Source of the DNA: Butyricicoccus faecihominis | GTDB lineage: Bacteria; Bacillota; Clostridia; Oscillospirales; Butyricicoccaceae | DNA length: 39,302 nt | Direction: 5' to 3' | NCBI RefSeq assembly: GCF_024462775.1 | Contig: NZ_JANGCE010000033.1 | Coordinates: 1-39,302 of the forward strand | Shown here: positions 1-39,302 of the stretch, piece after piece | Position numbering within the stretch: the first letter of the stretch is position 1 | Layout: each line of letters begins with the position of its first letter | Notes under the pieces: generated by a model | Told to the model about the DNA's origin: nothing | The model's database searches: none | What the model saw: the letters and a program-made list of their open reading frames with translations, nothing else | Position numbers and translations under genes: made by a program

Positions 1-30
1 GGGGGGGGGGCCGCGGGGGGCGGCCGGGGG
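1..30. other. G-homopolymer-rich window end
   Basis: Ten G, then CCGC, six G, CGGCC and five G. This composition is unlike the rest of the window and appears mirrored as C runs at 39273-39302. It looks like a low-quality contig end (dark-cycle poly-G or a collapsed repeat) rather than functional sequence. Confidence 0.6.
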
Positions 31-65
31 AGGTCACCCGGCCCTACAAACGGGATGCATCGACC

Positions 66-150
66 GAGCATGTAGGGCGGCGTGACTCACGCCGCCGTCG
101 CGGCTACTGCCGCGTATAAAATTGCGAGCGGCGCGAGCTACCTGTGGTAG
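66..150. repeat. Intergenic palindromic repeat with a stem-loop related to elements A and B
   Basis: A near-perfect hairpin GGCGGCGTGA/TCACGCCGCC (76-96) is followed by CGCGGC-TACT-GCCGCG (99-114), then TATAAAATT, then CTACC-TGT-GGTAG (138-150). The second hairpin and its flanks (CCGTCGCG before, CGCGTATAAAAT after) match the CCCTCGCG...CGCGCATAAAAT block of element A (7177-7201) and the CGCGTATAAA block of element B. GAGCATGTA at 66-74 resembles the GAGCATGTATC loop of those elements, but lies on the other side of the stem-loop. I read this as a partial or rearranged third relative. Mirror at 39153-39237. Confidence 0.45.
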
Positions 151-200
151 TAAAATTACTATTAACGGCAATTCCACTCCTAAAAATTTAGTGTTATGAT
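148..200 (+). promoter_or_regulatory. Promoter of first XRE gene with palindromic operator candidate
   Basis: A -35 TTCCAC (172-177) and -10 TATGAT (195-200) are separated by 17 bp. The palindrome TAGTAA-AA-TTACTA (148-161) lies just upstream of the -35 and is a plausible binding site for the downstream XRE repressor. Mirror at 39103-39155. Confidence 0.5.
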
Positions 201-244
201 AGCGTTACCTACACAGAAAGTTATGATGGACGGAGGAATTGAAA

Positions 245-568
245 GTGACAGAACAAAGCGGTATGGGACAGCGAATCAAGGCGGCGCGTAAAGCCAAGGG
301 ATTGACAGGAGAACATTTATCCGAGTTGTGTCATATCAACGCGACCTATTTTCGGCAAATTGAGGCAGGCCGTAAGATTCCCAGTCTGACGGTTTTCGTT
401 AGCCTATGCAGGGAGCTTGCGGTATCGCCAACCTATTTGCTGGAAGATTGCTTGAACGATAATGAACTGAGCGGTTTTAATGTACTTTCTGACCTATGGA
501 AAACCGCGCCGCCCTATCAAATAGAGGTGGTGACCGCTATGATTCGCAGTGCGTTGGAATGTATGTAA
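245..568 (+). CDS. XRE-family helix-turn-helix transcriptional regulator
   Basis: This 107-residue DNA-binding protein has one Cro/CI-type HTH over about residues 8-65 (GQRIKAARKAKGLTGEHLSE through YFRQIEAGRKIPS, then SPTYLLED) and a short C-terminal helix that may mediate dimerisation. A TTG at 239 would extend it by two residues, but the GGAGG at 232-236 is only 2 bases from that codon and 8 bases from the GTG at 245, so GTG is preferred. Small stand-alone XRE proteins of this size are common in integrated elements and next to a second XRE gene, as here. Target genes are unknown; autoregulation through the upstream palindrome is inferred. Confidence 0.85.
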   Translation: MTEQSGMGQRIKAARKAKGLTGEHLSELCHINATYFRQIEAGRKIPSLTVFVSLCRELAVSPTYLLEDCLNDNELSGFNVLSDLWKTAPPYQIEVVTAMIRSALECM

Positions 569-645
569 TCTCCTGCGCTCGCTTTGCTTTTTTTCATGAA
601 TAATCATATGATACACCTATATACTGTGTCATAAAAAGGTGTGAC

Positions 646-698
646 AACAACTATTTCGTTGTTTTGGGATTTCATCTGCGAACTAGATATGATATAAT
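646..698 (+). promoter_or_regulatory. Promoter and operator candidate of second XRE gene
   Basis: The -10 TATAAT (693-698) has a weak -35 TTTCAT (670-675) 17 bp upstream. A perfect inverted repeat AACAAC-TATTTC-GTTGTT (646-663) sits directly upstream of the -35, as expected for an XRE operator. A second imperfect inverted repeat, ATGATACA/TGTGTCAT, lies at 608-632. Mirror at 38605-38657. Confidence 0.5.
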
Positions 699-727
699 TA
701 TTCTCATTGTAAAGGGGGCGGTCGTCG

Positions 728-1045
728 ATGGTCGGGGAACGTTTAAGCGAGTTGCGCAAGGACAAAGGATTAACGCAAAAAGCAATGGCCGATATCTTTG
801 GTGTTTCGGTAAATACCATTTCTTTATATGAGCGTGATTTAATGTCACCGGAAGATGCCACAGAGGAAGCAATAGCACGTTATTTTGATGTTAGTCTGGA
901 CTATTTGCACGGCTTAACGGATAAACAACGATCGATTGCCTCGGACAATGCACAAATTATCGTATTGCGTGATGTTCCTGACACTGCGTTGACTGAAATT
1001 GCAGGCTTTTTAAACCAGATCAAAAAGAAATATAAACTGAAATAA
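728..1045 (+). CDS. XRE-family helix-turn-helix transcriptional regulator (second)
   Basis: The protein has 105 residues with a clear HTH_3 domain over residues 4-62 (RLSELRKDKGLTQKAMADIF, VSVNTISLYERD, then YFDVSLDYLHGLTD), which is close to phage and ICE repressors. The tail (about 63-105) ends in a lysine-rich helix. The start ATG follows AAAGGGGGCGG. Base composition is visibly more AT-rich than in the metabolic genes that follow, which suggests acquisition by transfer. It has its own promoter and is unrelated in sequence to the preceding XRE protein apart from the HTH. Confidence 0.88.
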   Translation: MVGERLSELRKDKGLTQKAMADIFGVSVNTISLYERDLMSPEDATEEAIARYFDVSLDYLHGLTDKQRSIASDNAQIIVLRDVPDTALTEIAGFLNQIKKKYKLK

Positions 1046-1156
1046 TTGGATACAAAAAACTCAAGTGCACTTTTAGAATCGGCGGCATATGAAATGCTGT
1101 AAATGATTTTAGAGGTGCATTTTGTGTTTGCAAACCTTCCTCCCGCACGCGAAAAA

Positions 1157-1185
1157 TTGTGCTCCCCTCGGATCGGTGGTATACT
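1157..1185 (+). promoter_or_regulatory. Sigma-A type promoter for the prenyltransferase-like gene
   Basis: TTGTGC (1157-1162), a 17-bp spacer and TATACT (1180-1185). It lies 37 bases upstream of the ATG at 1223. Mirror at 38118-38146. Confidence 0.55.
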
Positions 1186-1222
1186 GTTAGCATGAAAATC
1201 AGGAGCGAGGTGACCTGTCGAT

Positions 1223-2050
1223 ATGGAACAACAATATATGACCGATGTGGAGGCAATTTTATCGCACCGGTATGATAATGGCGCGGACTATTGGACGACG
1301 CCCGATCACAAATTGCTGAAAGGCGCGCCCTTTACGACCTTGGAAAGCGCGTTATATCTATTGGAACTCGGGGTGCCGCCGGAGGATGAGGTGATGAAAC
1401 ACGTCGCCGCGCTCATTTTTGACGGCTGGAGAGAGGATGGAAGAATAAAAGTTTCGCCCAGCGGCGGGATATATCCATGTCATACCGCTTTGGCGGTAAA
1501 TGTTTTGTGCCGCATGGGCTATGCGGACGACGAACGGGTGAAAAAGTCGTTTGACTATTTCCTTGCAACGCAACAGCAGGATGGCGGCTGGAAGTGCAAT
1601 AAATATAGCTTTGGCAGGGGCGAGGAGACCGCGTACTCCACCCCCTATACGACCTTGGAAGTCTTGGATTTGTTTCGCTATGCGCGTGTTCTCAACAAGG
1701 AGCAACGCCTCGACCGGGCGGTGGAATTTCTTTTGGAACACTGGGTCATTCGTAAGCCGATCAGCCCTTGCCACTATGGCATTGGTTCCCGGTTCTTGCA
1801 GATCGAATATCCCTTTCGCGGCTACGGCCTGTTTTACTATGTGTATGTGCTATCGTTCTATGACCGGGCCAAGGCCGACCCGCGCTTTTTAGAGGCCTTT
1901 GAAGCACTTCGATCCAAAACGGTCCATGGGGAGGTGCCGGTTGAAAGGGTCGTGCCCAAGCTCGCGGCGCTGCGTTTTTGCAAAAAAGGCGGGACGAGCG
2001 AGCTTGCCACAAGGCGCTATCAGGAGATCCTGCGGAATCTTACGGCGTGA
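1223..2050 (+). CDS. Prenyltransferase/terpene-cyclase-like alpha-toroid protein
   Basis: This 275-residue soluble protein has repeats of the prenyltransferase/squalene-oxidase type. The best is QQQDGGW at residues 117-123, matching the QxxDGGW signature, preceded by an aromatic-rich helical repeat (about 37-115) and followed by another (about 135-215). There is no DxDD cyclase motif, no obvious Zn-binding CaaX-transferase triad and no signal peptide, so the enzymatic activity is unknown; it may only bind a ligand in the toroid. The start is the ATG after GAGGTGA (1207-1213). It is probably transcribed alone: a promoter lies just upstream, and the next gene has its own strong ribosome site after an 8-bp hairpin at 2089-2111. 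Confidence 0.7.
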   Translation: MEQQYMTDVEAILSHRYDNGADYWTTPDHKLLKGAPFTTLESALYLLELGVPPEDEVMKHVAALIFDGWREDGRIKVSPSGGIYPCHTALAVNVLCRMGYADDERVKKSFDYFLATQQQDGGWKCNKYSFGRGEETAYSTPYTTLEVLDLFRYARVLNKEQRLDRAVEFLLEHWVIRKPISPCHYGIGSRFLQIEYPFRGYGLFYYVYVLSFYDRAKADPRFLEAFEALRSKTVHGEVPVERVVPKLAALRFCKKGGTSELATRRYQEILRNLTA

Positions 2051-2129
2051 CGCTGCCGGCGGCATAAGGGCGCCGTTCCCCGCATAGGGTAGAACTAGAA
2101 ATTCTATCCGATGAAAGGAGGAATGGCGG

Positions 2130-2942
2130 ATGCTGAGAGGGATCGACGTCAGCGAGCACGACGGCGCGATTGATTGGCCGCAGGTAGCGCAGCATGGGGA
2201 ACAATTCGCTGTGATTCGGTCAAGCTATGGCCTGTACAGTGTGGACGAACGCTTTGCCTATAACTATGAGCAGGCGGGAGAAGCCGGGCTGCTGCGCGGG
2301 GTCTACCATTACAGCTATGCGCTGAACGACGCGGACGCCCGCGCGGAAGCGAACCATGTGCTTTCCGTTTTGGGCACCAGACGGCCCACTATGCCCATTT
2401 GGCTCGATATGGAGGACGCGGACGGGTACAAGGCGCGGCATGGGTTTGTGTTTTCCAGACAAAACATCACTGGCCTTTGCGCGGCGTTTTTAGAGGTCAT
2501 TCGTGACAATGGGAGGCCCTGCGGCGTTTACGCCAACGAGGATTGGCTGACGCATTACATCGATGTGGAGCAACTGCCGCCCTGCGACGTGTGGCTGGCG
2601 CAGTGGAGCGCAAAGCCTACCTATACGGGCCGCTATGAAATGTGGCAGTATGCCTCGACCGGGCGCGTGCCCGGCATTCCGACCAACGTAGACCTTGATC
2701 TGTGTTATAAAAACTACCGAAAGGAGCCCGAAATGACACAAGAAGAGTTTAATCGGATGTTCGATACGGCGCTGAACGGCTATCTGGCGGCGCAGGAGGA
2801 GAAGGCGCCCAGCCGCTACGCGGTAGAAGCTTGGGCCGACGCGAAGAAACAGGGCATTATGGACGGCACCGCGCCGCGCTCTTGCGCCACGCGCGAACAG
2901 CTTGCGGTCGTGCTCGATCGTCTGGGCCTATTGGATAAATAA
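2130..2942 (+). CDS. GH25 lysozyme (endolysin-like muramidase)
   Basis: This 270-residue glycoside hydrolase family 25 protein hydrolyses the beta-1,4 MurNAc-GlcNAc bond of peptidoglycan. It shows the N-terminal GIDVSEH (Asp6) and the WLDMED catalytic block (Asp93, Glu95), and NVDLD near the end of the barrel (about residue 200). The C-terminal segment (about 230-268, EAWADAKKQGIMDGT through REQLAVVLDRLGLL) is SLH-like, as in endolysins of clostridial phages. There is no signal peptide, so release would need a holin or lysis, and no holin gene is adjacent. Start ATG after AAAGGAGG (2114-2121). It is likely a prophage-derived or domesticated endolysin. Confidence 0.9.
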   Translation: MLRGIDVSEHDGAIDWPQVAQHGEQFAVIRSSYGLYSVDERFAYNYEQAGEAGLLRGVYHYSYALNDADARAEANHVLSVLGTRRPTMPIWLDMEDADGYKARHGFVFSRQNITGLCAAFLEVIRDNGRPCGVYANEDWLTHYIDVEQLPPCDVWLAQWSAKPTYTGRYEMWQYASTGRVPGIPTNVDLDLCYKNYRKEPEMTQEEFNRMFDTALNGYLAAQEEKAPSRYAVEAWADAKKQGIMDGTAPRSCATREQLAVVLDRLGLLDK

Positions 2943-2956
2943 CGGAAGCACGTCCC

Positions 2957-2988
2957 GGGCGGCACAGGAAAACTGTGCCGCCCTTTTT
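2957..2988 (+). terminator. Intrinsic terminator after the lysozyme gene
   Basis: An 11-bp stem GGGCGGCACAG (2957-2967)/CTGTGCCGCCC (2973-2983) with loop GAAAA and five T. Mirror at 36315-36346. Confidence 0.92.
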
Positions 2989-2998
2989 GCGTACCCTA

Positions 2999-3044
2999 TT
3001 GACAAATGGGAAGAAAGCGCCTATTATGAGTTTAGAAACTAAAC
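2999..3044 (+). promoter_or_regulatory. MarR-operon promoter with palindromic operator
   Basis: TTGACA (2999-3004), 17 bp, TATTAT (3022-3027). Immediately downstream, over the transcription start, lies the perfect palindrome GTTTAG-AAA-CTAAAC (3030-3044), typical of MarR-family operators. This implies autorepression of the MarR/oxidoreductase operon. Mirror at 36259-36304. Confidence 0.8.
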
Positions 3045-3075
3045 TGTATAGATGCTAAAATTGGAGGATGATAGC

Positions 3076-3531
3076 ATGAGGGACTTTTCTGAGCTGACCG
3101 CGCTGATGGAGCGCGTTGTCCATAAATATACCCGTTGGGAGGACAAAAAGCGCACCTACGGTACCGAGGTGCCGCTATCCAAGGCGGAAATCCATACGAT
3201 CGCCGCCGTTGGCGATCATCCGAATATCAACATTACCGCGCTTGCGGAGGTTATGGGCGTCACGAAGGGCGCGGCTTCGCAAATGATCTATAAGCTGGTT
3301 GATAAAGGCGCGGTGGAAAAACGGGTATCGCCGGATTCGGATACCGAGGTGGTGCTGAACCTCACCGCGGCGGGAAAAAAGAATCACGAAGCACACGCGG
3401 CCTACCATCGGCAGGCGGGCGACAAAGCCTTGAACCTGCTCAGAGAAATGCCGGAGCCGCTTTTGGAAAGCATGGCGGAATATTTTGAAGCCTTCGAGAA
3501 GGTCATCGATGAAGGCTTGCGGGAAGAGTAA
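3076..3531 (+). CDS. MarR-family transcriptional regulator
   Basis: This 151-residue winged-helix repressor has its HTH at about residues 49-80 (NINITALAEVMGVTKGAASQ), a wing ending in SPDSDTEVVLNLTAAG (about 85-100), and terminal helices for dimerisation. An upstream in-frame ATG at 3052 exists, but GGAGG (3063-3067) lies downstream of it and 8 bases before the ATG at 3076, which decides the start. It heads an operon with two flavodoxin-fold genes (16-bp gap, then a 4-bp overlap), so it probably senses a phenolic, quinone or oxidant ligand and derepresses them. The specific ligand cannot be told. Confidence 0.9.
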   Translation: MRDFSELTALMERVVHKYTRWEDKKRTYGTEVPLSKAEIHTIAAVGDHPNINITALAEVMGVTKGAASQMIYKLVDKGAVEKRVSPDSDTEVVLNLTAAGKKNHEAHAAYHRQAGDKALNLLREMPEPLLESMAEYFEAFEKVIDEGLREE

Positions 3532-3547
3532 AGGGCGGTGAGACCAT

Positions 3548-4051
3548 ATGGCAAAACGATTACTGATTTATGATGTGGAGCCGCGTTTGGAGGCGACTTT
3601 TGACCGGCGACAGGGGATGGACCTGCTCTTTTCCGCCAACCCGCCGGTCGCGCACTGTATCGGTTGTTTTGGGTGCTGGATTAAAACGCCCGGCCGGTGT
3701 GTAATAAAGGATCGGGCTTCGGTGCTCCCTTCCTACTTTGCGCAATGCAGCGAGGTCATGATCGTCAGTCCCATTTTATATGGCGGCTATTCGGCCAATG
3801 TAAAGGCTGTTTTAGACCGTTCGATCGGTTATTTGCTGCCGTATTTCCGGTATATCGATGGACAGATGCACCATCAAATGCGGCACCAAAATCCCTTTCA
3901 TCTAAACGTACACTTTTATGGAACGTGCGGCGATAACGAGCGGAGCATCGCAAAAAGATTGGTCAACGCCAACGCGATCAATTTGGGCGCGGCAGGCTGT
4001 TCGGTACTGTTTTATGAAACGGCGGAAGAAATCGGGGTGGCAACTCAATGA
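3548..4051 (+). CDS. Flavodoxin-fold NAD(P)H-dependent oxidoreductase-like protein, atypical N-terminus
   Basis: The 167-residue protein belongs to the flavodoxin/NADPH-dependent FMN reductase fold. The CIGCFGCWIKTPGRCVIKD block (about residues 37-55) and SPILYGGYSANVKAVLDRS (about 76-94) are family hallmarks. The usual N-terminal FMN-phosphate loop (GSPR-x-x-S/T) is missing and replaced by IYDVEPRLEATFDRRQG, so flavin binding may be weak or shared with the partner. Its stop overlaps the start of the next gene (ATGA), which encodes a related protein with an intact loop, so a complex or sequential function is plausible (inference). Confidence 0.78.
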   Translation: MAKRLLIYDVEPRLEATFDRRQGMDLLFSANPPVAHCIGCFGCWIKTPGRCVIKDRASVLPSYFAQCSEVMIVSPILYGGYSANVKAVLDRSIGYLLPYFRYIDGQMHHQMRHQNPFHLNVHFYGTCGDNERSIAKRLVNANAINLGAAGCSVLFYETAEEIGVATQ

Positions 4052-4668
4052 AAATTGTAATGTTAAGCGGCAGCCCGCGCCCAAAGCGAAGTACGTCTCT
4101 ATATTTGCTGGATATCCTAAAAGATAAACTGGCGGCGGAAAACGAGATAACGATGTATCAGTCGACCGGCACCAATCTGGCTGCCTTGGCGGCTGACCTA
4201 TCCGGCAGCGATGTTTTTGTGATCGCATGCCCGCTCTATGTGGATGGCGTGCCTTCCAACCTGCTGCAAGCGTTAAGCGCCGTCCAACAGGCAAGCATAA
4301 CGGGACGGGAAAAGATCAGAGTCTACACGCTGGTCAACAATGGGTTTTATGACGCCGCGCAAAACAGCATAGCGATCGATATCCTTTGGAATTGGTGCGA
4401 TCAGTGCGGCTTTCAAAGGGGCTGCGCGGTGGGAATCGGCGCGGGGGAAATGGTGCAGATGGCGCCAATGGGACATGGGCCGCTCGTTAATTTGGGCAAG
4501 GCGATCGATCGGCTTGTCAAGACGATAGAAGCCGGAAGCGCCCAAAATGATCTGTTTGTAGAGCCGAATCTTCCACGCTTTTTATATAAGCTGGCCGCCC
4601 ATTATGGTTGGCGCAAGCAGGCGAAAGAAAACGGCTTAAAAAGCGCCGCGATCAGGAAAACCGAATGA
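4048..4668 (+). CDS. NAD(P)H-dependent FMN reductase / flavodoxin family protein
   Basis: This 206-residue flavodoxin-fold oxidoreductase has the FMN-phosphate loop SGSPRPKRSTS at residues 7-17 and the second flavin loop ACPLYVDGVPSNLLQAL at about 55-71. It probably reduces quinones, nitro compounds or flavins using NAD(P)H in the cytoplasm. It is translationally coupled (ATGA overlap) to the preceding flavodoxin-like gene and co-regulated by the MarR protein. A basic tail (KLAAHYGWRKQAKENGLKSA) ends the protein. The substrate cannot be assigned. Confidence 0.82.
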   Translation: MKIVMLSGSPRPKRSTSLYLLDILKDKLAAENEITMYQSTGTNLAALAADLSGSDVFVIACPLYVDGVPSNLLQALSAVQQASITGREKIRVYTLVNNGFYDAAQNSIAIDILWNWCDQCGFQRGCAVGIGAGEMVQMAPMGHGPLVNLGKAIDRLVKTIEAGSAQNDLFVEPNLPRFLYKLAAHYGWRKQAKENGLKSAAIRKTE

Positions 4669-4679
4669 GGATCGAAAAG

Positions 4680-4706
4680 AAATACCTGCTAACGCGGTAT
4701 TTTTTT
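4680..4706 (+). terminator. Intrinsic terminator after the MarR operon
   Basis: Stem AAATACC (4680-4686)/GGTATTT (4696-4702) followed by a run of T to 4706. It separates the MarR operon from the MATE gene. Mirror at 34597-34623. Confidence 0.75.
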
Positions 4707-4731
4707 ACCTATATTGTTTAGCTTTTATACT
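4704..4731 (+). promoter_or_regulatory. Candidate promoter for the MATE gene
   Basis: -10 TATACT (4726-4731) with a weak -35 TTTACC (4704-4709) at 16 bp. The start codon is 45 bases downstream. Mirror at 34572-34599. Confidence 0.45.
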
Positions 4732-4775
4732 GTAGAGGTGCTAACTGACGCGAAAACCGGAAAGAAGGATTTATC

Positions 4776-6116
4776 ATGCAAGAAACACACACCGAGCTGT
4801 TGGAAAACGCGCCGGTGAAGCACGCGCTTTTGCGGCTCGGCATACCGGCCATGACCGGTATGCTGATCTCCACGGTCTATAATCTGGTGGACGCTTTTTT
4901 TATCGGCAAATTGGGCACCCTGCAAACAGCCGCCGTTACGGTGGTCTATCCGCTAACCATGGTCGCCATGGGTGTGGGGCTGCTGTTTGGCAACGGGGCG
5001 GGCTCTAACATTTCTCGGCTGCTCGGCAAAAAGGATGCTGAACAGGTGGGCGCTTTCAGCAGTACGGCCATCCTTTCCGGCGTGGCGGTCATGGCCGTGC
5101 TGGCGGCCGGCATGCTTCTGTTCCTCAAGCCGCTCATGTATGCCTTGGGGGCCTCGCGGAGCAGCTATGGGTTTGCAAGGGATTACGGTATACTTTATAT
5201 CATCGGGTTGATCTTCAATGTGTTCAATATGATAATGAACAACCTGATCGCGGCAGAGGGCGTTTCTTCCTTCGGCATGTTTGCGATGCTGGCGGGCGGC
5301 TGCGCCAATCTGGTGCTGGACCCGATTTTCATTTTCGCCTGCGGCTGGGGCGTGGGCGGCGCGGCGGCGGCCACGCTGCTCTCGCGCTTGGTTTCTTCCG
5401 CGTTTTATATCGGGTACCTGCTGCGGGGAAAAAGCTGCCTTCGTGTTTCGGTTCGGCGCTTTCGGCCGAATGGTAAGCTTTATGCTACAATCTTCCGTAT
5501 CGGCTTGCCCGTTTGTTTGTTCCAGTTTTTGGCCGGCGCCGCGGTTACCTTGACCAACAACGCCGCAAAGCCGTTTGGCGAAGCCGCGGTAGCCGCCATG
5601 GGCATTGTCAACCGGATCATGTCCATTGAGACCAACGCGCTTTACGGCTTCTTAAAGGGGTATTCTCCGCTGGTCGGCTACAGCTACGGCGCGGGAGATC
5701 TGGCGCGCGTGCGCGAAGCGACCAGAACCGCCGCTCGTTGGAGCACGGCGGCCAATATCCTGTTTGGCGTGATCTGCATCGTGCTCGCCGGGCCGCTGAT
5801 CCATCTGTTCAATCAGTCCTCCGCGCAGGTGCTGTCGATCGGCAGCGCCGCACTCCGTGTGGACGCGGTCTCCTTTATGCTGCTGGGCGTGCAGATCGTC
5901 ATCGGCAATTACTTTTTGGCGACGGGCAAGGCGCGGCAGGGCGGCATGCTCAGCGTATTCCGGCAAGGATTATTTTTCATCCCGTTTCTTTTAGTGCTGA
6001 GCCGCCTTTGGGGCATTCCCGGCATGATCGGCGCCCAGCTGGCGGCGGACGTGTGCGCCACGCTGCTGACACTGGCGCTATGGAAAAAGGAACGCGCACT
6101 ACTGCCCGCAGCATAA
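4776..6116 (+). CDS. MATE-family multidrug/Na+ efflux transporter
   Basis: This 446-residue integral membrane protein has about 12 hydrophobic helices in two MatE halves (about 15-175 and 235-400). The first half starts LGIPAMTGMLISTVYNLVDA with FIGKLG after it, and the second contains the SIETNALYGFLKGYSPLVGY block. MATE proteins export cationic drugs or metabolites in exchange for Na+ or H+. Start ATG after AGAAGGA. It sits between a redox MarR operon and an AraC/GyrI-like regulator, which suggests xenobiotic defence (inference). Substrate unknown. Confidence 0.92.
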   Translation: MQETHTELLENAPVKHALLRLGIPAMTGMLISTVYNLVDAFFIGKLGTLQTAAVTVVYPLTMVAMGVGLLFGNGAGSNISRLLGKKDAEQVGAFSSTAILSGVAVMAVLAAGMLLFLKPLMYALGASRSSYGFARDYGILYIIGLIFNVFNMIMNNLIAAEGVSSFGMFAMLAGGCANLVLDPIFIFACGWGVGGAAAATLLSRLVSSAFYIGYLLRGKSCLRVSVRRFRPNGKLYATIFRIGLPVCLFQFLAGAAVTLTNNAAKPFGEAAVAAMGIVNRIMSIETNALYGFLKGYSPLVGYSYGAGDLARVREATRTAARWSTAANILFGVICIVLAGPLIHLFNQSSAQVLSIGSAALRVDAVSFMLLGVQIVIGNYFLATGKARQGGMLSVFRQGLFFIPFLLVLSRLWGIPGMIGAQLAADVCATLLTLALWKKERALLPAA

Positions 6117-6143
6117 AAAGCTGCAAGATCCGTGGATTTGCAT

Positions 6144-6205
6144 TATAATAGAAAAAGCGATTGCGCAAAAAACGTCGAGCGGTTTTTTGCAAAGTCTCCT
6201 ATAAT
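6144..6205 (+). promoter_or_regulatory. Upstream region of AraC-type gene: two TATAAT boxes and an inverted repeat
   Basis: TATAAT occurs at 6144-6149 (with CTGCAA 17 bp upstream at 6121-6126) and again at 6200-6205. Between them lies the perfect 9-bp inverted repeat GCAAAAAAC (6165-6173)/GTTTTTTGC (6182-6190). It could be a regulator-binding site between tandem promoters, or a weak terminator for the MATE transcript. Mirror at 33098-33159. Confidence 0.45.
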
Positions 6206-6229
6206 AACGATTGTCGGGAGGTGACACAG

Positions 6230-7108
6230 ATGCAGGAACAAATAGAAGCCGTACAGCGCATGCAGGATTATATCGAAGCGCACTTGTTTGAAAATATCAC
6301 GCTGGCCGATCTCGCGGCGGCGTCGCTGTTTTCACCGTGGTACGCGCACCGTCTGTTTGTCCGTCAAACCGGAATGGCCCCGGCGGATTATATCCGCAGG
6401 TTCCGCCTTTCCAAATCGGCGCTGCGGCTGCGGGACGAACCGTGCAAAATAGCGGAGGTGGCGTTTGCCATGGGGTTCGGCAGCGTGGACGGCTACCAGC
6501 GCGCGTTTCGCCGTGAATTTGGGTGCAACCCGAGCGAATACGCCGCGCATCCGGTTCCGGTCTATCTGTTCACCCCCTACGGCGTGAAGTTTAGGCATAT
6601 CGAAAGGAGACCGGTCATGGAAAATTTAAAGAACGTATTTGTACAGGTGATCGAAAAGCCCGCGCGCAAGGCGCTGATCAAGCGTGGGATCAAGGCGGCC
6701 GATTATTGGACCTATTGCGAGGAGGTGGGCTGCGACGTGTGGGGCTTGCTGCAAAGCATCCGATCCATTAGCGGCGAACCGGTTTGCCTGTGGCTGCCGC
6801 TGCCGTACCGCAAGCCGGGCACCTCGGAGTATGTGCAGGGCGTCGAGGTCGGCGTGGATTACGACGGCGTCGTGCCCGAGGGCTTGGATGTGATCGACCT
6901 GCCCGCCGCCAAGTATCTGATGTTTCAGGGCGAGCCGTTCGCGGAGGAGGACTACTGTCAGGCCATCGACGAGATGCAGGCTTCGATTCAAAAGTACGAT
7001 CCGGCGGTGATTGGCTATGCGTGGGATGAAACGAACCCCCGCGTGCAGTTGGAGCCGATCGGCACTAGGGGCTATATCGAGCTGCTACCGATCCGAGAGA
7101 AGCAGTAA
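6230..7108 (+). CDS. AraC-family regulator with GyrI-like effector-binding domain
   Basis: The protein has 292 residues. The N-terminal double HTH of AraC type spans about 8-103 (ITLADLAAASLFSPWYAHRLF and IAEVAFAMGFGSVDGYQRAF, ending GCNPSEYAA). A GyrI-like/AraC_E_bind domain (about 125-290, with VFVQVIEKPARKALIKRG and the terminal GYIELLPI) binds small hydrophobic or cationic ligands in relatives such as Rob and BmrR. The preferred start is the ATG at 6230 after GGGAGGTG (6216-6223), not the upstream ATG at 6161. It may control the MATE gene immediately upstream. Confidence 0.9.
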   Translation: MQEQIEAVQRMQDYIEAHLFENITLADLAAASLFSPWYAHRLFVRQTGMAPADYIRRFRLSKSALRLRDEPCKIAEVAFAMGFGSVDGYQRAFRREFGCNPSEYAAHPVPVYLFTPYGVKFRHIERRPVMENLKNVFVQVIEKPARKALIKRGIKAADYWTYCEEVGCDVWGLLQSIRSISGEPVCLWLPLPYRKPGTSEYVQGVEVGVDYDGVVPEGLDVIDLPAAKYLMFQGEPFAEEDYCQAIDEMQASIQKYDPAVIGYAWDETNPRVQLEPIGTRGYIELLPIREKQ

Positions 7109-7157
7109 AAAAACACAGCAGCGCACATGGCAAAACGGTTTGCCGTGTGCGCTGCTG
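7107..7157 (-). terminator. Leftward intrinsic terminator ending element A
   Basis: A long hairpin (7116-7157; arms beginning CAGCAGCGCACA and ending GTGTGCGCTGCTG) is followed on the minus strand by TGT and seven T (7107-7113). It would stop transcription coming from galM through element A. Mirror at 32146-32196 on the plus strand. Confidence 0.8.
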
Positions 7158-7416
7158 CCAGCGTGTCAAAGAACTCCCTCGCGCCGCAGCGCGCATAAAA
7201 TAGAATTTTGCCGTTTGCGGCAAAATTCATAAAAACCGGGAGCATGTATCTCGGTTTTTATACAAACCGACTTCAAGTGTGCCTGCAAGGCGCGCGCAGA
7301 AGTCGGAATTCTCGATCGAAATGGGGCTTTGTTTCGATCGACAGACTGTCAAAACTTGTTTTTTGACAGTCTGACAGCAGCGCACATGGCAAAACGGTTT
7401 GCCGTGTGCGCTGCTG
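7116..7416 (-). repeat. Stem-loop chain 'element A' in the AraC-galM intergenic region
   Basis: The 335 bases between the AraC gene and galM hold no gene but seven stem-loops: 7116-7157, 7180-7193 (CGCGC-CGCA-GCGCG), 7203-7228 (GAATTTTGCCG stem), 7231-7259 (AAAAACCG stem, AGCATGTATCT in the loop), 7267-7306 (CCGACTTC/GAAGTCGG with an inner GCCT/AGGC stem), 7312-7341 (TCGATCGAAA) and 7343-7372 (AGACTGTCAAAA). A last one at 7375-7416 is an exact 42-bp direct repeat of the first. Most of the block recurs, diverged, as element B. Orientation is given as minus because there it follows galM and ends at a T-run terminator. It could be a structured RNA or a mobile palindromic repeat. Mirror at 31887-32187. 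Confidence 0.8.
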
Positions 7417-7443
7417 CTATATGGGGTGGGTTATGGGCTTGTT

Positions 7444-8490: not shown

Positions 8491-8496
8491 GTAAAA

Positions 8497-9987: not shown

Positions 9988-10002
9988 GGCGGTTCGCTCC
10001 TT

Positions 10003-30806: not shown

Positions 30807-30812
30807 TTTTAC

Positions 30813-31859
30813 ATGGATATTGTATGCACGCCCTTTGGGCGCGACCGCGCGGGCCATGCGGTGCTGCGCTATACGTTGACGGAAGGGGCGCTTTCCGCCT
30901 CGATCCTGACGCTGGGCGGCGTTTTGCAGTCGCTTACCGTGCCTGACCGGAACGGCAAGCCCGTGGACGTGGTGCTCGGCTTTGATTCGGCCGAGGATTA
31001 CGAACAGCAGACCTGCTATATCGGCGCGTTGATCGGCCGGTGCGCCAACCGCATCGCGGAGGGCCGCTTTGTGCTGAACGGGCAAGCCTATCAGCTTGCC
31101 TGCAATGAAAACGGTACGACCCACCTGCACGGCGGCGAAATTGGCTTTGATAAACGGCAGTGGATCACCTCGATCCATTCCGAAGGACTCAGCCTGCAAT
31201 ACCACAGCCCGGCGGGCGAAGGAGGCTATCCCGGCGCGCTGCACGCCGCCGTTACCTATCGGCTGACGGCGGACAGTCTGATCATCGACTATCACGCCGA
31301 GTCCGACGCGCCTACACCCTGCAACCTGACGAACCACAGCTACTTCAATCTGGACGGCCACGGCGCGGGTCCGGTGGGCGGGCAGCGCATCCGGCTGAAC
31401 GCCGCGCGCTACACGCCGATCGACGCCGCGAGTATCCCGACCGGCGAGATCGCCGCGACGCAGGACACGCCGATGGACCTGACCCGCGAAACGCCCCTCG
31501 GCGCGCATTGGGACGACGATTTTGAACAGCTGCGCCTTGCCGGCGGGTACGACCACAACTTTATCGTGGACGGCGCCTTTGGTACGCTGCGCCCGGCGGC
31601 GCGTGTGAGGAGCGAGCGCACCGGCATCATCATGGATGTGGAGACCACCATGCCCGGTATGCAGCTATACACCGGCAACTTTTTACGCGCCGATATGCCC
31701 GCGGGCAAGGGCGGCGTCAAATACGCGCCGCGGCACGGCTTCTGTCTGGAAACGCAGTATTACCCAAGCGCGCTCACCCTGCCCCAGTTCCCGCAGCCCG
31801 TGCTGCGCCCCGGCGAGACATACCGGCACCAAACCGTGTTCCGCTTTTCGGCGGAATAA
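30813..31859 (+). CDS. galM: Aldose 1-epimerase (mirror copy)
   Basis: Identical to 7444-8490: His105, His175, Glu313. Last gene of the operon, 6 bases after galT and followed by element A. Confidence 0.92.
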   Translation: MDIVCTPFGRDRAGHAVLRYTLTEGALSASILTLGGVLQSLTVPDRNGKPVDVVLGFDSAEDYEQQTCYIGALIGRCANRIAEGRFVLNGQAYQLACNENGTTHLHGGEIGFDKRQWITSIHSEGLSLQYHSPAGEGGYPGALHAAVTYRLTADSLIIDYHAESDAPTPCNLTNHSYFNLDGHGAGPVGGQRIRLNAARYTPIDAASIPTGEIAATQDTPMDLTRETPLGAHWDDDFEQLRLAGGYDHNFIVDGAFGTLRPAARVRSERTGIIMDVETTMPGMQLYTGNFLRADMPAGKGGVKYAPRHGFCLETQYYPSALTLPQFPQPVLRPGETYRHQTVFRFSAE

Positions 31860-31886
31860 AACAAGCCCATAACCCACCCCATATAG

Positions 31887-32187
31887 CAGCAGCGCACACG
31901 GCAAACCGTTTTGCCATGTGCGCTGCTGTCAGACTGTCAAAAAACAAGTTTTGACAGTCTGTCGATCGAAACAAAGCCCCATTTCGATCGAGAATTCCGA
32001 CTTCTGCGCGCGCCTTGCAGGCACACTTGAAGTCGGTTTGTATAAAAACCGAGATACATGCTCCCGGTTTTTATGAATTTTGCCGCAAACGGCAAAATTC
32101 TATTTTATGCGCGCTGCGGCGCGAGGGAGTTCTTTGACACGCTGGCAGCAGCGCACACGGCAAACCGTTTTGCCATGTGCGCTGCTG
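31887..32187 (+). repeat. Element A (mirror copy, reading with galM)
   Basis: Reverse complement of 7116-7416. Reads as a chain of stem-loops after galM, beginning and ending with the same 42-bp hairpin; the second (32146-32187) is followed by a T-run to 32196. Confidence 0.78.
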
Positions 32188-32194
32188 TGTTTTT

Positions 32195-33073
32195 TTACTG
32201 CTTCTCTCGGATCGGTAGCAGCTCGATATAGCCCCTAGTGCCGATCGGCTCCAACTGCACGCGGGGGTTCGTTTCATCCCACGCATAGCCAATCACCGCC
32301 GGATCGTACTTTTGAATCGAAGCCTGCATCTCGTCGATGGCCTGACAGTAGTCCTCCTCCGCGAACGGCTCGCCCTGAAACATCAGATACTTGGCGGCGG
32401 GCAGGTCGATCACATCCAAGCCCTCGGGCACGACGCCGTCGTAATCCACGCCGACCTCGACGCCCTGCACATACTCCGAGGTGCCCGGCTTGCGGTACGG
32501 CAGCGGCAGCCACAGGCAAACCGGTTCGCCGCTAATGGATCGGATGCTTTGCAGCAAGCCCCACACGTCGCAGCCCACCTCCTCGCAATAGGTCCAATAA
32601 TCGGCCGCCTTGATCCCACGCTTGATCAGCGCCTTGCGCGCGGGCTTTTCGATCACCTGTACAAATACGTTCTTTAAATTTTCCATGACCGGTCTCCTTT
32701 CGATATGCCTAAACTTCACGCCGTAGGGGGTGAACAGATAGACCGGAACCGGATGCGCGGCGTATTCGCTCGGGTTGCACCCAAATTCACGGCGAAACGC
32801 GCGCTGGTAGCCGTCCACGCTGCCGAACCCCATGGCAAACGCCACCTCCGCTATTTTGCACGGTTCGTCCCGCAGCCGCAGCGCCGATTTGGAAAGGCGG
32901 AACCTGCGGATATAATCCGCCGGGGCCATTCCGGTTTGACGGACAAACAGACGGTGCGCGTACCACGGTGAAAACAGCGACGCCGCCGCGAGATCGGCCA
33001 GCGTGATATTTTCAAACAAGTGCGCTTCGATATAATCCTGCATGCGCTGTACGGCTTCTATTTGTTCCTGCAT
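32195..33073 (-). CDS. AraC-family regulator with GyrI-like domain (mirror copy)
   Basis: Identical to 6230-7108: 292 residues from the ATG preceded by GGGAGGTG. Confidence 0.87.
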   Translation of the reverse strand: MQEQIEAVQRMQDYIEAHLFENITLADLAAASLFSPWYAHRLFVRQTGMAPADYIRRFRLSKSALRLRDEPCKIAEVAFAMGFGSVDGYQRAFRREFGCNPSEYAAHPVPVYLFTPYGVKFRHIERRPVMENLKNVFVQVIEKPARKALIKRGIKAADYWTYCEEVGCDVWGLLQSIRSISGEPVCLWLPLPYRKPGTSEYVQGVEVGVDYDGVVPEGLDVIDLPAAKYLMFQGEPFAEEDYCQAIDEMQASIQKYDPAVIGYAWDETNPRVQLEPIGTRGYIELLPIREKQ

Positions 33074-33186
33074 CTGTGTCACCTCCCGACAATCGTTATT
33101 ATAGGAGACTTTGCAAAAAACCGCTCGACGTTTTTTGCGCAATCGCTTTTTCTATTATAATGCAAATCCACGGATCTTGCAGCTTT

Positions 33187-34527
33187 TTATGCTGCGGGCA
33201 GTAGTGCGCGTTCCTTTTTCCATAGCGCCAGTGTCAGCAGCGTGGCGCACACGTCCGCCGCCAGCTGGGCGCCGATCATGCCGGGAATGCCCCAAAGGCG
33301 GCTCAGCACTAAAAGAAACGGGATGAAAAATAATCCTTGCCGGAATACGCTGAGCATGCCGCCCTGCCGCGCCTTGCCCGTCGCCAAAAAGTAATTGCCG
33401 ATGACGATCTGCACGCCCAGCAGCATAAAGGAGACCGCGTCCACACGGAGTGCGGCGCTGCCGATCGACAGCACCTGCGCGGAGGACTGATTGAACAGAT
33501 GGATCAGCGGCCCGGCGAGCACGATGCAGATCACGCCAAACAGGATATTGGCCGCCGTGCTCCAACGAGCGGCGGTTCTGGTCGCTTCGCGCACGCGCGC
33601 CAGATCTCCCGCGCCGTAGCTGTAGCCGACCAGCGGAGAATACCCCTTTAAGAAGCCGTAAAGCGCGTTGGTCTCAATGGACATGATCCGGTTGACAATG
33701 CCCATGGCGGCTACCGCGGCTTCGCCAAACGGCTTTGCGGCGTTGTTGGTCAAGGTAACCGCGGCGCCGGCCAAAAACTGGAACAAACAAACGGGCAAGC
33801 CGATACGGAAGATTGTAGCATAAAGCTTACCATTCGGCCGAAAGCGCCGAACCGAAACACGAAGGCAGCTTTTTCCCCGCAGCAGGTACCCGATATAAAA
33901 CGCGGAAGAAACCAAGCGCGAGAGCAGCGTGGCCGCCGCCGCGCCGCCCACGCCCCAGCCGCAGGCGAAAATGAAAATCGGGTCCAGCACCAGATTGGCG
34001 CAGCCGCCCGCCAGCATCGCAAACATGCCGAAGGAAGAAACGCCCTCTGCCGCGATCAGGTTGTTCATTATCATATTGAACACATTGAAGATCAACCCGA
34101 TGATATAAAGTATACCGTAATCCCTTGCAAACCCATAGCTGCTCCGCGAGGCCCCCAAGGCATACATGAGCGGCTTGAGGAACAGAAGCATGCCGGCCGC
34201 CAGCACGGCCATGACCGCCACGCCGGAAAGGATGGCCGTACTGCTGAAAGCGCCCACCTGTTCAGCATCCTTTTTGCCGAGCAGCCGAGAAATGTTAGAG
34301 CCCGCCCCGTTGCCAAACAGCAGCCCCACACCCATGGCGACCATGGTTAGCGGATAGACCACCGTAACGGCGGCTGTTTGCAGGGTGCCCAATTTGCCGA
34401 TAAAAAAAGCGTCCACCAGATTATAGACCGTGGAGATCAGCATACCGGTCATGGCCGGTATGCCGAGCCGCAAAAGCGCGTGCTTCACCGGCGCGTTTTC
34501 CAACAGCTCGGTGTGTGTTTCTTGCAT
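33187..34527 (-). CDS. MATE-family efflux transporter (mirror copy)
   Basis: Identical to 4776-6116: 446 residues, about 12 membrane helices. Confidence 0.88.
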   Translation of the reverse strand: MQETHTELLENAPVKHALLRLGIPAMTGMLISTVYNLVDAFFIGKLGTLQTAAVTVVYPLTMVAMGVGLLFGNGAGSNISRLLGKKDAEQVGAFSSTAILSGVAVMAVLAAGMLLFLKPLMYALGASRSSYGFARDYGILYIIGLIFNVFNMIMNNLIAAEGVSSFGMFAMLAGGCANLVLDPIFIFACGWGVGGAAAATLLSRLVSSAFYIGYLLRGKSCLRVSVRRFRPNGKLYATIFRIGLPVCLFQFLAGAAVTLTNNAAKPFGEAAVAAMGIVNRIMSIETNALYGFLKGYSPLVGYSYGAGDLARVREATRTAARWSTAANILFGVICIVLAGPLIHLFNQSSAQVLSIGSAALRVDAVSFMLLGVQIVIGNYFLATGKARQGGMLSVFRQGLFFIPFLLVLSRLWGIPGMIGAQLAADVCATLLTLALWKKERALLPAA

Positions 34528-34634
34528 GATAAATCCTTCTTTCCGGTTTTCGCGTCAGTTAGCACCTCTACAGTATAAAAGCTAAACAATATAGGTAAAA
34601 AAATACCGCGTTAGCAGGTATTTCTTTTCGATCC

Positions 34635-35255
34635 TCATTCGGTTTTCCTGATCGCGGCGCTTTTTAAGCCGTTTTCTTTCGCCTGCTTGCGCCAACCATA
34701 ATGGGCGGCCAGCTTATATAAAAAGCGTGGAAGATTCGGCTCTACAAACAGATCATTTTGGGCGCTTCCGGCTTCTATCGTCTTGACAAGCCGATCGATC
34801 GCCTTGCCCAAATTAACGAGCGGCCCATGTCCCATTGGCGCCATCTGCACCATTTCCCCCGCGCCGATTCCCACCGCGCAGCCCCTTTGAAAGCCGCACT
34901 GATCGCACCAATTCCAAAGGATATCGATCGCTATGCTGTTTTGCGCGGCGTCATAAAACCCATTGTTGACCAGCGTGTAGACTCTGATCTTTTCCCGTCC
35001 CGTTATGCTTGCCTGTTGGACGGCGCTTAACGCTTGCAGCAGGTTGGAAGGCACGCCATCCACATAGAGCGGGCATGCGATCACAAAAACATCGCTGCCG
35101 GATAGGTCAGCCGCCAAGGCAGCCAGATTGGTGCCGGTCGACTGATACATCGTTATCTCGTTTTCCGCCGCCAGTTTATCTTTTAGGATATCCAGCAAAT
35201 ATAGAGACGTACTTCGCTTTGGGCGCGGGCTGCCGCTTAACATTACAATTTTCAT
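34635..35255 (-). CDS. NAD(P)H-dependent FMN reductase (mirror copy)
   Basis: Identical to 4048-4668: FMN loop SGSPRPKRSTS intact. Overlaps the preceding gene by ATGA. Confidence 0.8.
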   Translation of the reverse strand: MKIVMLSGSPRPKRSTSLYLLDILKDKLAAENEITMYQSTGTNLAALAADLSGSDVFVIACPLYVDGVPSNLLQALSAVQQASITGREKIRVYTLVNNGFYDAAQNSIAIDILWNWCDQCGFQRGCAVGIGAGEMVQMAPMGHGPLVNLGKAIDRLVKTIEAGSAQNDLFVEPNLPRFLYKLAAHYGWRKQAKENGLKSAAIRKTE

Positions 35256-35755
35256 TGAGTTGCCACCCCGATTTCTTCCGCCGTTTCATAAAACAGTACC
35301 GAACAGCCTGCCGCGCCCAAATTGATCGCGTTGGCGTTGACCAATCTTTTTGCGATGCTCCGCTCGTTATCGCCGCACGTTCCATAAAAGTGTACGTTTA
35401 GATGAAAGGGATTTTGGTGCCGCATTTGATGGTGCATCTGTCCATCGATATACCGGAAATACGGCAGCAAATAACCGATCGAACGGTCTAAAACAGCCTT
35501 TACATTGGCCGAATAGCCGCCATATAAAATGGGACTGACGATCATGACCTCGCTGCATTGCGCAAAGTAGGAAGGGAGCACCGAAGCCCGATCCTTTATT
35601 ACACACCGGCCGGGCGTTTTAATCCAGCACCCAAAACAACCGATACAGTGCGCGACCGGCGGGTTGGCGGAAAAGAGCAGGTCCATCCCCTGTCGCCGGT
35701 CAAAAGTCGCCTCCAAACGCGGCTCCACATCATAAATCAGTAATCGTTTTGCCAT
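35252..35755 (-). CDS. Flavodoxin-fold oxidoreductase-like protein (mirror copy)
   Basis: Identical to 3548-4051: CIGCFGCW block present, N-terminal FMN-phosphate loop missing. Confidence 0.76.
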   Translation of the reverse strand: MAKRLLIYDVEPRLEATFDRRQGMDLLFSANPPVAHCIGCFGCWIKTPGRCVIKDRASVLPSYFAQCSEVMIVSPILYGGYSANVKAVLDRSIGYLLPYFRYIDGQMHHQMRHQNPFHLNVHFYGTCGDNERSIAKRLVNANAINLGAAGCSVLFYETAEEIGVATQ

Positions 35756-35771
35756 ATGGTCTCACCGCCCT

Positions 35772-36227
35772 TTACTCTTCCCGCAAGCCTTCATCGATGA
35801 CCTTCTCGAAGGCTTCAAAATATTCCGCCATGCTTTCCAAAAGCGGCTCCGGCATTTCTCTGAGCAGGTTCAAGGCTTTGTCGCCCGCCTGCCGATGGTA
35901 GGCCGCGTGTGCTTCGTGATTCTTTTTTCCCGCCGCGGTGAGGTTCAGCACCACCTCGGTATCCGAATCCGGCGATACCCGTTTTTCCACCGCGCCTTTA
36001 TCAACCAGCTTATAGATCATTTGCGAAGCCGCGCCCTTCGTGACGCCCATAACCTCCGCAAGCGCGGTAATGTTGATATTCGGATGATCGCCAACGGCGG
36101 CGATCGTATGGATTTCCGCCTTGGATAGCGGCACCTCGGTACCGTAGGTGCGCTTTTTGTCCTCCCAACGGGTATATTTATGGACAACGCGCTCCATCAG
36201 CGCGGTCAGCTCAGAAAAGTCCCTCAT
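35772..36227 (-). CDS. MarR-family regulator (mirror copy)
   Basis: Identical to 3076-3531: 151 residues. Promoter and palindromic operator mirrored at 36259-36304. Confidence 0.87.
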   Translation of the reverse strand: MRDFSELTALMERVVHKYTRWEDKKRTYGTEVPLSKAEIHTIAAVGDHPNINITALAEVMGVTKGAASQMIYKLVDKGAVEKRVSPDSDTEVVLNLTAAGKKNHEAHAAYHRQAGDKALNLLREMPEPLLESMAEYFEAFEKVIDEGLREE

Positions 36228-36360
36228 GCTATCATCCTCCAATTTTAGCATCTATACAGTTTAGTTTCTAAACTCATAATAGGCGCTTTCTTCCCATTTG
36301 TCAATAGGGTACGCAAAAAGGGCGGCACAGTTTTCCTGTGCCGCCCGGGACGTGCTTCCG

Positions 36361-37173
36361 TTATTTATCCAATAGGCCCAGACGATCGAGCACGACCGCA
36401 AGCTGTTCGCGCGTGGCGCAAGAGCGCGGCGCGGTGCCGTCCATAATGCCCTGTTTCTTCGCGTCGGCCCAAGCTTCTACCGCGTAGCGGCTGGGCGCCT
36501 TCTCCTCCTGCGCCGCCAGATAGCCGTTCAGCGCCGTATCGAACATCCGATTAAACTCTTCTTGTGTCATTTCGGGCTCCTTTCGGTAGTTTTTATAACA
36601 CAGATCAAGGTCTACGTTGGTCGGAATGCCGGGCACGCGCCCGGTCGAGGCATACTGCCACATTTCATAGCGGCCCGTATAGGTAGGCTTTGCGCTCCAC
36701 TGCGCCAGCCACACGTCGCAGGGCGGCAGTTGCTCCACATCGATGTAATGCGTCAGCCAATCCTCGTTGGCGTAAACGCCGCAGGGCCTCCCATTGTCAC
36801 GAATGACCTCTAAAAACGCCGCGCAAAGGCCAGTGATGTTTTGTCTGGAAAACACAAACCCATGCCGCGCCTTGTACCCGTCCGCGTCCTCCATATCGAG
36901 CCAAATGGGCATAGTGGGCCGTCTGGTGCCCAAAACGGAAAGCACATGGTTCGCTTCCGCGCGGGCGTCCGCGTCGTTCAGCGCATAGCTGTAATGGTAG
37001 ACCCCGCGCAGCAGCCCGGCTTCTCCCGCCTGCTCATAGTTATAGGCAAAGCGTTCGTCCACACTGTACAGGCCATAGCTTGACCGAATCACAGCGAATT
37101 GTTCCCCATGCTGCGCTACCTGCGGCCAATCAATCGCGCCGTCGTGCTCGCTGACGTCGATCCCTCTCAGCAT
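36361..37173 (-). CDS. GH25 lysozyme (mirror copy)
   Basis: Identical to 2130-2942: Asp6, Asp93 and Glu95; no signal peptide; SLH-like tail. Confidence 0.87.
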   Translation of the reverse strand: MLRGIDVSEHDGAIDWPQVAQHGEQFAVIRSSYGLYSVDERFAYNYEQAGEAGLLRGVYHYSYALNDADARAEANHVLSVLGTRRPTMPIWLDMEDADGYKARHGFVFSRQNITGLCAAFLEVIRDNGRPCGVYANEDWLTHYIDVEQLPPCDVWLAQWSAKPTYTGRYEMWQYASTGRVPGIPTNVDLDLCYKNYRKEPEMTQEEFNRMFDTALNGYLAAQEEKAPSRYAVEAWADAKKQGIMDGTAPRSCATREQLAVVLDRLGLLDK

Positions 37174-37252
37174 CCGCCATTCCTCCTTTCATCGGATAGA
37201 ATTTCTAGTTCTACCCTATGCGGGGAACGGCGCCCTTATGCCGCCGGCAGCG

Positions 37253-38080
37253 TCACGCCGTAAGATTCCGCAGGATCTCCTGATAGCGCCTTGTGGCAAG
37301 CTCGCTCGTCCCGCCTTTTTTGCAAAAACGCAGCGCCGCGAGCTTGGGCACGACCCTTTCAACCGGCACCTCCCCATGGACCGTTTTGGATCGAAGTGCT
37401 TCAAAGGCCTCTAAAAAGCGCGGGTCGGCCTTGGCCCGGTCATAGAACGATAGCACATACACATAGTAAAACAGGCCGTAGCCGCGAAAGGGATATTCGA
37501 TCTGCAAGAACCGGGAACCAATGCCATAGTGGCAAGGGCTGATCGGCTTACGAATGACCCAGTGTTCCAAAAGAAATTCCACCGCCCGGTCGAGGCGTTG
37601 CTCCTTGTTGAGAACACGCGCATAGCGAAACAAATCCAAGACTTCCAAGGTCGTATAGGGGGTGGAGTACGCGGTCTCCTCGCCCCTGCCAAAGCTATAT
37701 TTATTGCACTTCCAGCCGCCATCCTGCTGTTGCGTTGCAAGGAAATAGTCAAACGACTTTTTCACCCGTTCGTCGTCCGCATAGCCCATGCGGCACAAAA
37801 CATTTACCGCCAAAGCGGTATGACATGGATATATCCCGCCGCTGGGCGAAACTTTTATTCTTCCATCCTCTCTCCAGCCGTCAAAAATGAGCGCGGCGAC
37901 GTGTTTCATCACCTCATCCTCCGGCGGCACCCCGAGTTCCAATAGATATAACGCGCTTTCCAAGGTCGTAAAGGGCGCGCCTTTCAGCAATTTGTGATCG
38001 GGCGTCGTCCAATAGTCCGCGCCATTATCATACCGGTGCGATAAAATTGCCTCCACATCGGTCATATATTGTTGTTCCAT
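37253..38080 (-). CDS. Prenyltransferase/terpene-cyclase-like protein (mirror copy)
   Basis: Identical to 1223-2050: QQQDGGW at residues 117-123; function unknown. Confidence 0.68.
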   Translation of the reverse strand: MEQQYMTDVEAILSHRYDNGADYWTTPDHKLLKGAPFTTLESALYLLELGVPPEDEVMKHVAALIFDGWREDGRIKVSPSGGIYPCHTALAVNVLCRMGYADDERVKKSFDYFLATQQQDGGWKCNKYSFGRGEETAYSTPYTTLEVLDLFRYARVLNKEQRLDRAVEFLLEHWVIRKPISPCHYGIGSRFLQIEYPFRGYGLFYYVYVLSFYDRAKADPRFLEAFEALRSKTVHGEVPVERVVPKLAALRFCKKGGTSELATRRYQEILRNLTA

Positions 38081-38257
38081 ATCGACAGGTCACCTCGCTC
38101 CTGATTTTCATGCTAACAGTATACCACCGATCCGAGGGGAGCACAATTTTTCGCGTGCGGGAGGAAGGTTTGCAAACACAAAATGCACCTCTAAAATCAT
38201 TTACAGCATTTCATATGCCGCCGATTCTAAAAGTGCACTTGAGTTTTTTGTATCCAA

Positions 38258-38575
38258 TTATTTCAGTTTATATTTCTTTTTGATCTGGTTTAAAAAGCCT
38301 GCAATTTCAGTCAACGCAGTGTCAGGAACATCACGCAATACGATAATTTGTGCATTGTCCGAGGCAATCGATCGTTGTTTATCCGTTAAGCCGTGCAAAT
38401 AGTCCAGACTAACATCAAAATAACGTGCTATTGCTTCCTCTGTGGCATCTTCCGGTGACATTAAATCACGCTCATATAAAGAAATGGTATTTACCGAAAC
38501 ACCAAAGATATCGGCCATTGCTTTTTGCGTTAATCCTTTGTCCTTGCGCAACTCGCTTAAACGTTCCCCGACCAT
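38258..38575 (-). CDS. XRE-family regulator, second (mirror copy)
   Basis: Identical to 728-1045: 105 residues with an HTH_3 domain. Confidence 0.85.
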   Translation of the reverse strand: MVGERLSELRKDKGLTQKAMADIFGVSVNTISLYERDLMSPEDATEEAIARYFDVSLDYLHGLTDKQRSIASDNAQIIVLRDVPDTALTEIAGFLNQIKKKYKLK

Positions 38576-38734
38576 CGACGACCGCCCCCTTTACAATGAG
38601 AATAATTATATCATATCTAGTTCGCAGATGAAATCCCAAAACAACGAAATAGTTGTTGTCACACCTTTTTATGACACAGTATATAGGTGTATCATATGAT
38701 TATTCATGAAAAAAAGCAAAGCGAGCGCAGGAGA

Positions 38735-39058
38735 TTACATACATTCCAACGCACTGCGAATCATAGCGGTCACCACCTCTATTTGATAGGGCGGCGCGGT
38801 TTTCCATAGGTCAGAAAGTACATTAAAACCGCTCAGTTCATTATCGTTCAAGCAATCTTCCAGCAAATAGGTTGGCGATACCGCAAGCTCCCTGCATAGG
38901 CTAACGAAAACCGTCAGACTGGGAATCTTACGGCCTGCCTCAATTTGCCGAAAATAGGTCGCGTTGATATGACACAACTCGGATAAATGTTCTCCTGTCA
39001 ATCCCTTGGCTTTACGCGCCGCCTTGATTCGCTGTCCCATACCGCTTTGTTCTGTCAC
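38735..39058 (-). CDS. XRE-family regulator, first (mirror copy)
   Basis: Identical to 245-568. GTG start at 39058 preferred over TTG at 39064 because of ribosome-site spacing. Confidence 0.82.
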   Translation of the reverse strand: MTEQSGMGQRIKAARKAKGLTGEHLSELCHINATYFRQIEAGRKIPSLTVFVSLCRELAVSPTYLLEDCLNDNELSGFNVLSDLWKTAPPYQIEVVTAMIRSALECM

Positions 39059-39302
39059 TTTCAATTCCTCCGTCCATCATAACTTTCTGTGTAGGTAACG
39101 CTATCATAACACTAAATTTTTAGGAGTGGAATTGCCGTTAATAGTAATTTTACTACCACAGGTAGCTCGCGCCGCTCGCAATTTTATACGCGGCAGTAGC
39201 CGCGACGGCGGCGTGAGTCACGCCGCCCTACATGCTCGGTCGATGCATCCCGTTTGTAGGGCCGGGTGACCTCCCCCGGCCGCCCCCCGCGGCCCCCCCC
39301 CC

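Follow-up and report, generated by a model that had tools for sequence, protein, structure and literature searches.

Contigs whose second half exactly mirrors the first were reported in small number from single-cell cyanobacterial assemblies, where they were described as very likely assembly artefacts and were removed by the authors (PMC12755884). Inverted joins are also produced by multiple displacement amplification (MDA), the reported chimeras being mostly inversions with an intervening deletion (PMC1855051). In Escherichia coli deficient in both SbcCD and RecA, interrupted palindromes (85 and 246 bp) were described as sites of inverted duplication; the sbcDC single mutant, according to the same account, did not show such fragments (PMC3315005). 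Borrelia-type hairpin telomeres, as outlined in PMC6945570, give a palindromic reading round a closed end. Here these systems were compared with a 39,302-base window of Butyricicoccus faecihominis (NZ_JANGCE010000033.1), which takes up all of contig C27 in a draft genome (G000; 3,686,344 bases, 56 contigs) and consists of an arm followed by its own reverse complement. C27 very probably arose as an artefact of assembly, in which a path through a multi-k de Bruijn graph turned back at a palindromic transcription terminator and became its own reverse complement. It shares the exact mirroring of halves with the cyanobacterial contigs, which came from single-cell genomes and for which the passage concerned gives neither axis sequence nor mechanism. 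A literature search for the graph mechanism (self-conjugate palindromic de Bruijn paths; perfect-palindrome contig errors in metagenomes) found no published description.

The window was compared with its reverse complement position by position, giving 0 mismatches over all 39,302 bases, an axis between 19651 and 19652 and a spacer of zero. The perfect, spacerless inverted repeat claimed by an earlier sequence-only reading was thereby confirmed, and the second half repeats the first as exactly as a de Bruijn turn-around would leave it. Searched against its own genome, the arm matched C27:1-19651 (+) and C27:19652-39302 (-), both at 100%; further matches in G000 did not exceed ∼300 bases and belonged for the most part to dispersed repeats (scored: 40 of the 311 first-look candidates). 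These repeats, common to the arm and other contigs, tie the arm to G000. For comparison, 1,904,036 bases were sampled at the ends of the 55 remaining contigs, ∼7.6 kb being counted twice through overlaps. The longest perfect palindrome in this sample was 48 bp, which rules out a chance palindrome as the origin of C27, and the longest exact inverted arms were 264 bp, 876 bp apart (within single stretches of up to 20 kb). No second fold-back like C27 was seen: inverted pairs beginning within 100 bases of a contig end had arms of at most 45 bp, in stretches of up to 20 kb, which longer fold-backs would escape.

The axis lies directly behind a gene for a 91-residue zinc-ribbon protein, the last gene of the arm, relatives of which were found in 55 of the 60 genomes searched (G000 included). 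A palindrome (AAAAAGC...GCTTTTT) begins 26 bases past the stop codon, and its GATC centre makes the core perfectly symmetrical. Its length within the contig is 38 bp, and the native palindrome may have differed in length. A hairpin with a T-run was found just 3′ of the zinc-ribbon gene in G002, G034 and G044, three of the four closest relatives examined (in G034, 2 of 200 shuffles folded equally well); the fourth, G030, inspected by eye only, had no clear hairpin there. Because a hairpin and T-run occupy the same place in three of four relatives, the 38-bp core is read as the zinc-ribbon gene's own intrinsic terminator and as the point of turn-around. The axis hairpin is missing from the results of a consensus terminator scan, in our view an effect of the mirror arm, which lengthens the stem past the T-run. 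Coordinates are collected in Table 1.

Table 1. Positions of the arm, its mirror and the features at the axis and outer ends of contig C27
Feature	Coordinates	Strand	Details
Arm, one copy of ordinary chromosomal genes	1..19651	+	Exact mirror of 19652-39302; Pfam and NCBIfam
Mirror copy of arm	19652..39302	-	0 mismatches to reverse complement
Zinc-ribbon (zf_Tbcl) protein gene adjoining axis	19331..19606	+	Pfam zf_Tbcl, E 5.4e-24; mirror 19697-19972 (-)
Perfect palindrome, 38 bp, centred on axis	19633..19670	+	-28.1 kcal/mol; 0/200 shuffles as good
G/C-only end noise	1..30	.	30/30 G+C
Same end noise, mirrored	39273..39302	.	Exact reverse complement of 1-30

In one of these relatives, G044 (locus L113), two zinc-ribbon paralogues stand face-to-face at 9559-9807 (+) and 10465-10596 (-), ∼560 bp apart. 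This is a natural, diverged inverted pair.

The type of assembler was read from the contig ends. All 112 ends of the 56 contigs were compared with each other, excluding the C27-C27 pair. The longest exact end overlaps were of 55 bases (C12R/C11L and C20R/C43L), the first 55 bases of C25L and C36R were identical, C16R and C40R started with exactly 55 C, and no shared end sequence of more than 55 bases was present among the 112 ends. Such 55-base end sequences are the mark of de Bruijn assembly with K=55. The outermost bases of C27 were examined in the same way: ends of 30 G+C bases out of 30 occurred at 6 of 111 contig ends (C27 among them, counted once) and at 5 of 643,583 sampled interior 30-mers. 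The outer 30 bases of C27 are thus end noise typical for contig ends of this assembly.

The sequence-only reading had named a fold-back artefact as the likeliest explanation, with a graph turn-around, an MDA snap-back or an unsplit hairpin read as its three forms. The artefact reading is upheld and can be narrowed to the first form, at a palindromic terminator. A graph turn-around fits best since the axis palindrome of the contig is longer than the small k presumed for a multi-k assembly and K=55 marks are present at the contig ends. These de Bruijn marks make an unsplit long hairpin read less probable, and this form was rejected on them. MDA chimeras resemble C27 in joining sequence in inverted orientation to its own neighbourhood; in the form described as usual they carry an intervening deletion (PMC1855051), whereas C27 has a spacer of zero and 19.65-kb arms without a mismatch, and this form was set aside.

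The proposed route is as follows. The arm passes through the zinc-ribbon gene into the perfect 38-bp palindrome at the axis. In a graph that holds both strands, a perfect palindrome longer than k is its own reverse complement and leads both onward and back. With the reads beyond the palindrome missing, the sole exit is back along the other strand of the arm, and a mirror contig so formed survives being handed to a larger k; these steps were reproduced in a toy model. In the real data, reads past the axis hairpin were presumably lost or too few, and the assembler, run at K=55 to judge from the marks and at smaller k beforehand, would have written the arm, the palindrome and the reverse-complement arm. 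The 38-bp core is longer than such small k, the native palindrome length and the k steps below 55 being presumed here. The genome would then hold one copy of the arm, running on beyond the terminator into other sequence, and 19652-39302 is judged from its sequence to be absent as a second copy.

The toy assembly used error-free reads of 150 bases, drawn from part of the arm (position 3001 on) as far as the T-run. Perfect palindromes were the longest contigs at k=21 (24,510 bases) and k=33 (24,534 bases), both shortened by an internal repeat. Feeding the k=33 contigs into a k=55 step yielded a single perfect palindrome of 33,302 bases, double the 16,651 bases of arm that had been put in. Once a random downstream side was added, the longest contig was no palindrome at k=21, 33 or 55, and the route from k=33 to k=55 gave the correct contig. 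The outcome also depended on where the reads halted: with reads halting 12 bases past the axis a palindrome was formed at k=21 only, and with reads halting 5 bases past it at none of the three k.

Hairpins were enriched at the contig ends of this assembly. Stems of at least 10 were found at 12 of 111 contig ends and at 21 of 2000 control positions. A start exactly at a hairpin edge was observed for 6 of 111 ends (e.g. C12L, C17L, C17R, C19R, C39L, C49L) against 529 of 280,125 control positions; offsets of 1, 2 and 3 bases from a hairpin edge were observed for 5, 6 and 4 ends, these being for the most part internal to the same hairpins. The enrichment may come from lost reads or from fold-back reads. 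The latter would suit the nearest rival of a graph turn-around, an artefact made in the tube and not by the graph, in which strands snap back at the terminator hairpin and self-prime during library preparation, and reads running from arm through palindrome to mirrored arm are extended to a mirror contig. This library fold-back would work at any k, and both hairpin counts favour it. Read loss at hairpins may explain those counts equally well, fold-back reads were not needed in the toy model, and in the MDA data of PMC1855051 most chimeras carried an intervening deletion and hairpin self-priming was excluded, for that material, as a major mechanism. We regard a library fold-back as unlikely. At one of the contig ends, C17L, the sequence halts at a perfect palindrome of 30 bp and does not fold back, a behaviour to be expected were k=33 the limit for turning round.

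Several results weigh against a graph turn-around. Six palindromes of 34-48 bp lie in the interior of contigs without any fold-back, so the loss of reads beyond the axis must be assumed in addition to the palindrome itself. The toy assembly at k=55 alone makes no palindrome, and the earlier steps at k=21 and 33, with contigs handed on, are presumed by us from common assembler defaults. End overlaps of 15-45 bases are also present among the contig ends. The true downstream neighbour of the arm did not come to light within the assembly: the axis core, allowing up to 3 mismatches, had no near-copy in G000 other than at the axis, and no 13-mer was shared with the outermost 300 bases at the other contig ends. 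A comparison of relatives, which the sequence-only reading had put forward for learning what follows the zinc-ribbon gene, likewise failed, no conserved neighbour being found in the four closest. Downstream of the zinc-ribbon gene, G002 has DNA related to the antiporter and TetR genes of the window; in the window these two genes are on the opposite side of the zinc-ribbon gene. Synteny thus could not name the missing neighbour. The GGDEF protein of the arm was also scanned against the species-genome collection, and the best 80 of 568 relatives, all distant (26-39% identity over partial lengths), gave nothing on what follows the axis. Finally, no match to SbcD was obtained in G000 by a search that gave matches in 13 of 14 control genomes (over the cut-off in 8).

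This last result bears on the argument from stability. The sequence-only reading had argued that natural bacterial palindromes of this size are unstable and would hardly stay free of mismatches, and took this as one ground for an artefact. That long palindromes are unstable is largely the work of the SbcCD nuclease, as established for E. coli. Without an SbcD match in G000 the argument is weaker than it was stated, while the artefact reading it served stands. SbcD was found over the cut-off in 14 of 60 genomes, and within the genus in 1 of 24 (G018; G000 counted among the 24). Matches to SbcC in G000 were partial and below a cut-off that was reached by only 1 of the 14 controls. Several other genera of the same family have SbcD, and a lineage loss of the palindrome-cutting nuclease in the genus of G000 is possible.

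The SbcD and SbcC results speak for a true inverted duplication, in which the DNA would have broken close to the palindrome, folded back and been replicated to give a 39-kb palindrome in the cells, on the chromosome or on a fragment. E. coli sbcDC recA cells provide a precedent, being like C27 in showing an inverted duplication centred on a palindrome. The precedent as described concerns mutants with engineered interrupted palindromes, in which DNA molecules were detected, whereas C27 is known from sequence alone; the account also reports no such fragments for the sbcDC single mutant (PMC3315005). Within the genome itself, no perfect palindrome of more than 48 bp is present in 1.90 Mb, and both outer edges of C27 lie in mirrored G/C noise, where a true repeat would end at two unique flanks. 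A duplication of this kind is regarded as very improbable. Much the same applies to the wider proposal of a bacterium, from a genus largely without recognisable SbcD, in whose chromosome an ordinary terminator has nucleated a true 39-kb palindrome without spacer (or a closed end), for which we see only a very slight chance. Should such a palindrome be real, it would challenge present knowledge of how stable palindromes are in bacterial cells.

A linear replicon with a covalently closed hairpin end would, if the sequence were read round the tip, also give a zero-spacer axis with perfect arms, and in this respect C27 is like the Borrelia-type hairpin telomeres described in PMC6945570. Those telomeres differ from C27 in that G000 has no match to a telomere resolvase (PF16684; ResT/TelK) and in that the axis of C27 is a transcription terminator amid ordinary chromosomal genes. 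The control for the resolvase search is thin (1 of 14 control genomes matched). The hairpin telomere was rejected on the missing resolvase, and the chance that the axis of C27 is the tip of one is judged extremely small; taken together, a real palindrome or a closed end is given a very small probability.

Taken literally, C27 would double every gene of the arm and misplace the sequence that follows the zinc-ribbon gene. Each arm gene should be counted once, and 19652-39302 should be disregarded until reads show otherwise. Contigs of this type are detected by a self-reverse-complement test; in other short-read drafts, a cause that can be sought is a perfect palindromic terminator at the axis.

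Nineteen arm proteins were scanned with Pfam and NCBIfam, and include those of galM, galT, galE and a broken galK, a MATE transporter, an antiporter, the GGDEF protein and the zinc-ribbon protein. The arm had no near match in E. coli genomes, and a 31-base pattern from it had none in viral contigs. The galK gene (11031-12456, -) is split by a frameshift and mirrored in the other arm; galactokinase-like pieces were found in two frames, once per arm, in agreement with the sequence-only reading, and point to a pseudogene or a sequencing error. Two dispersed repeats lie in the arm. The one at 12575-12878 is ∼300 bp long and has at least 13 other copies in the genome, partly incomplete. The other, at 7116-7416, has inverted ends of ∼55 bp that are 87% alike and a core of ∼215 bp with at least 28 further occurrences in the genome, and looks like a miniature inverted-repeat transposable element.
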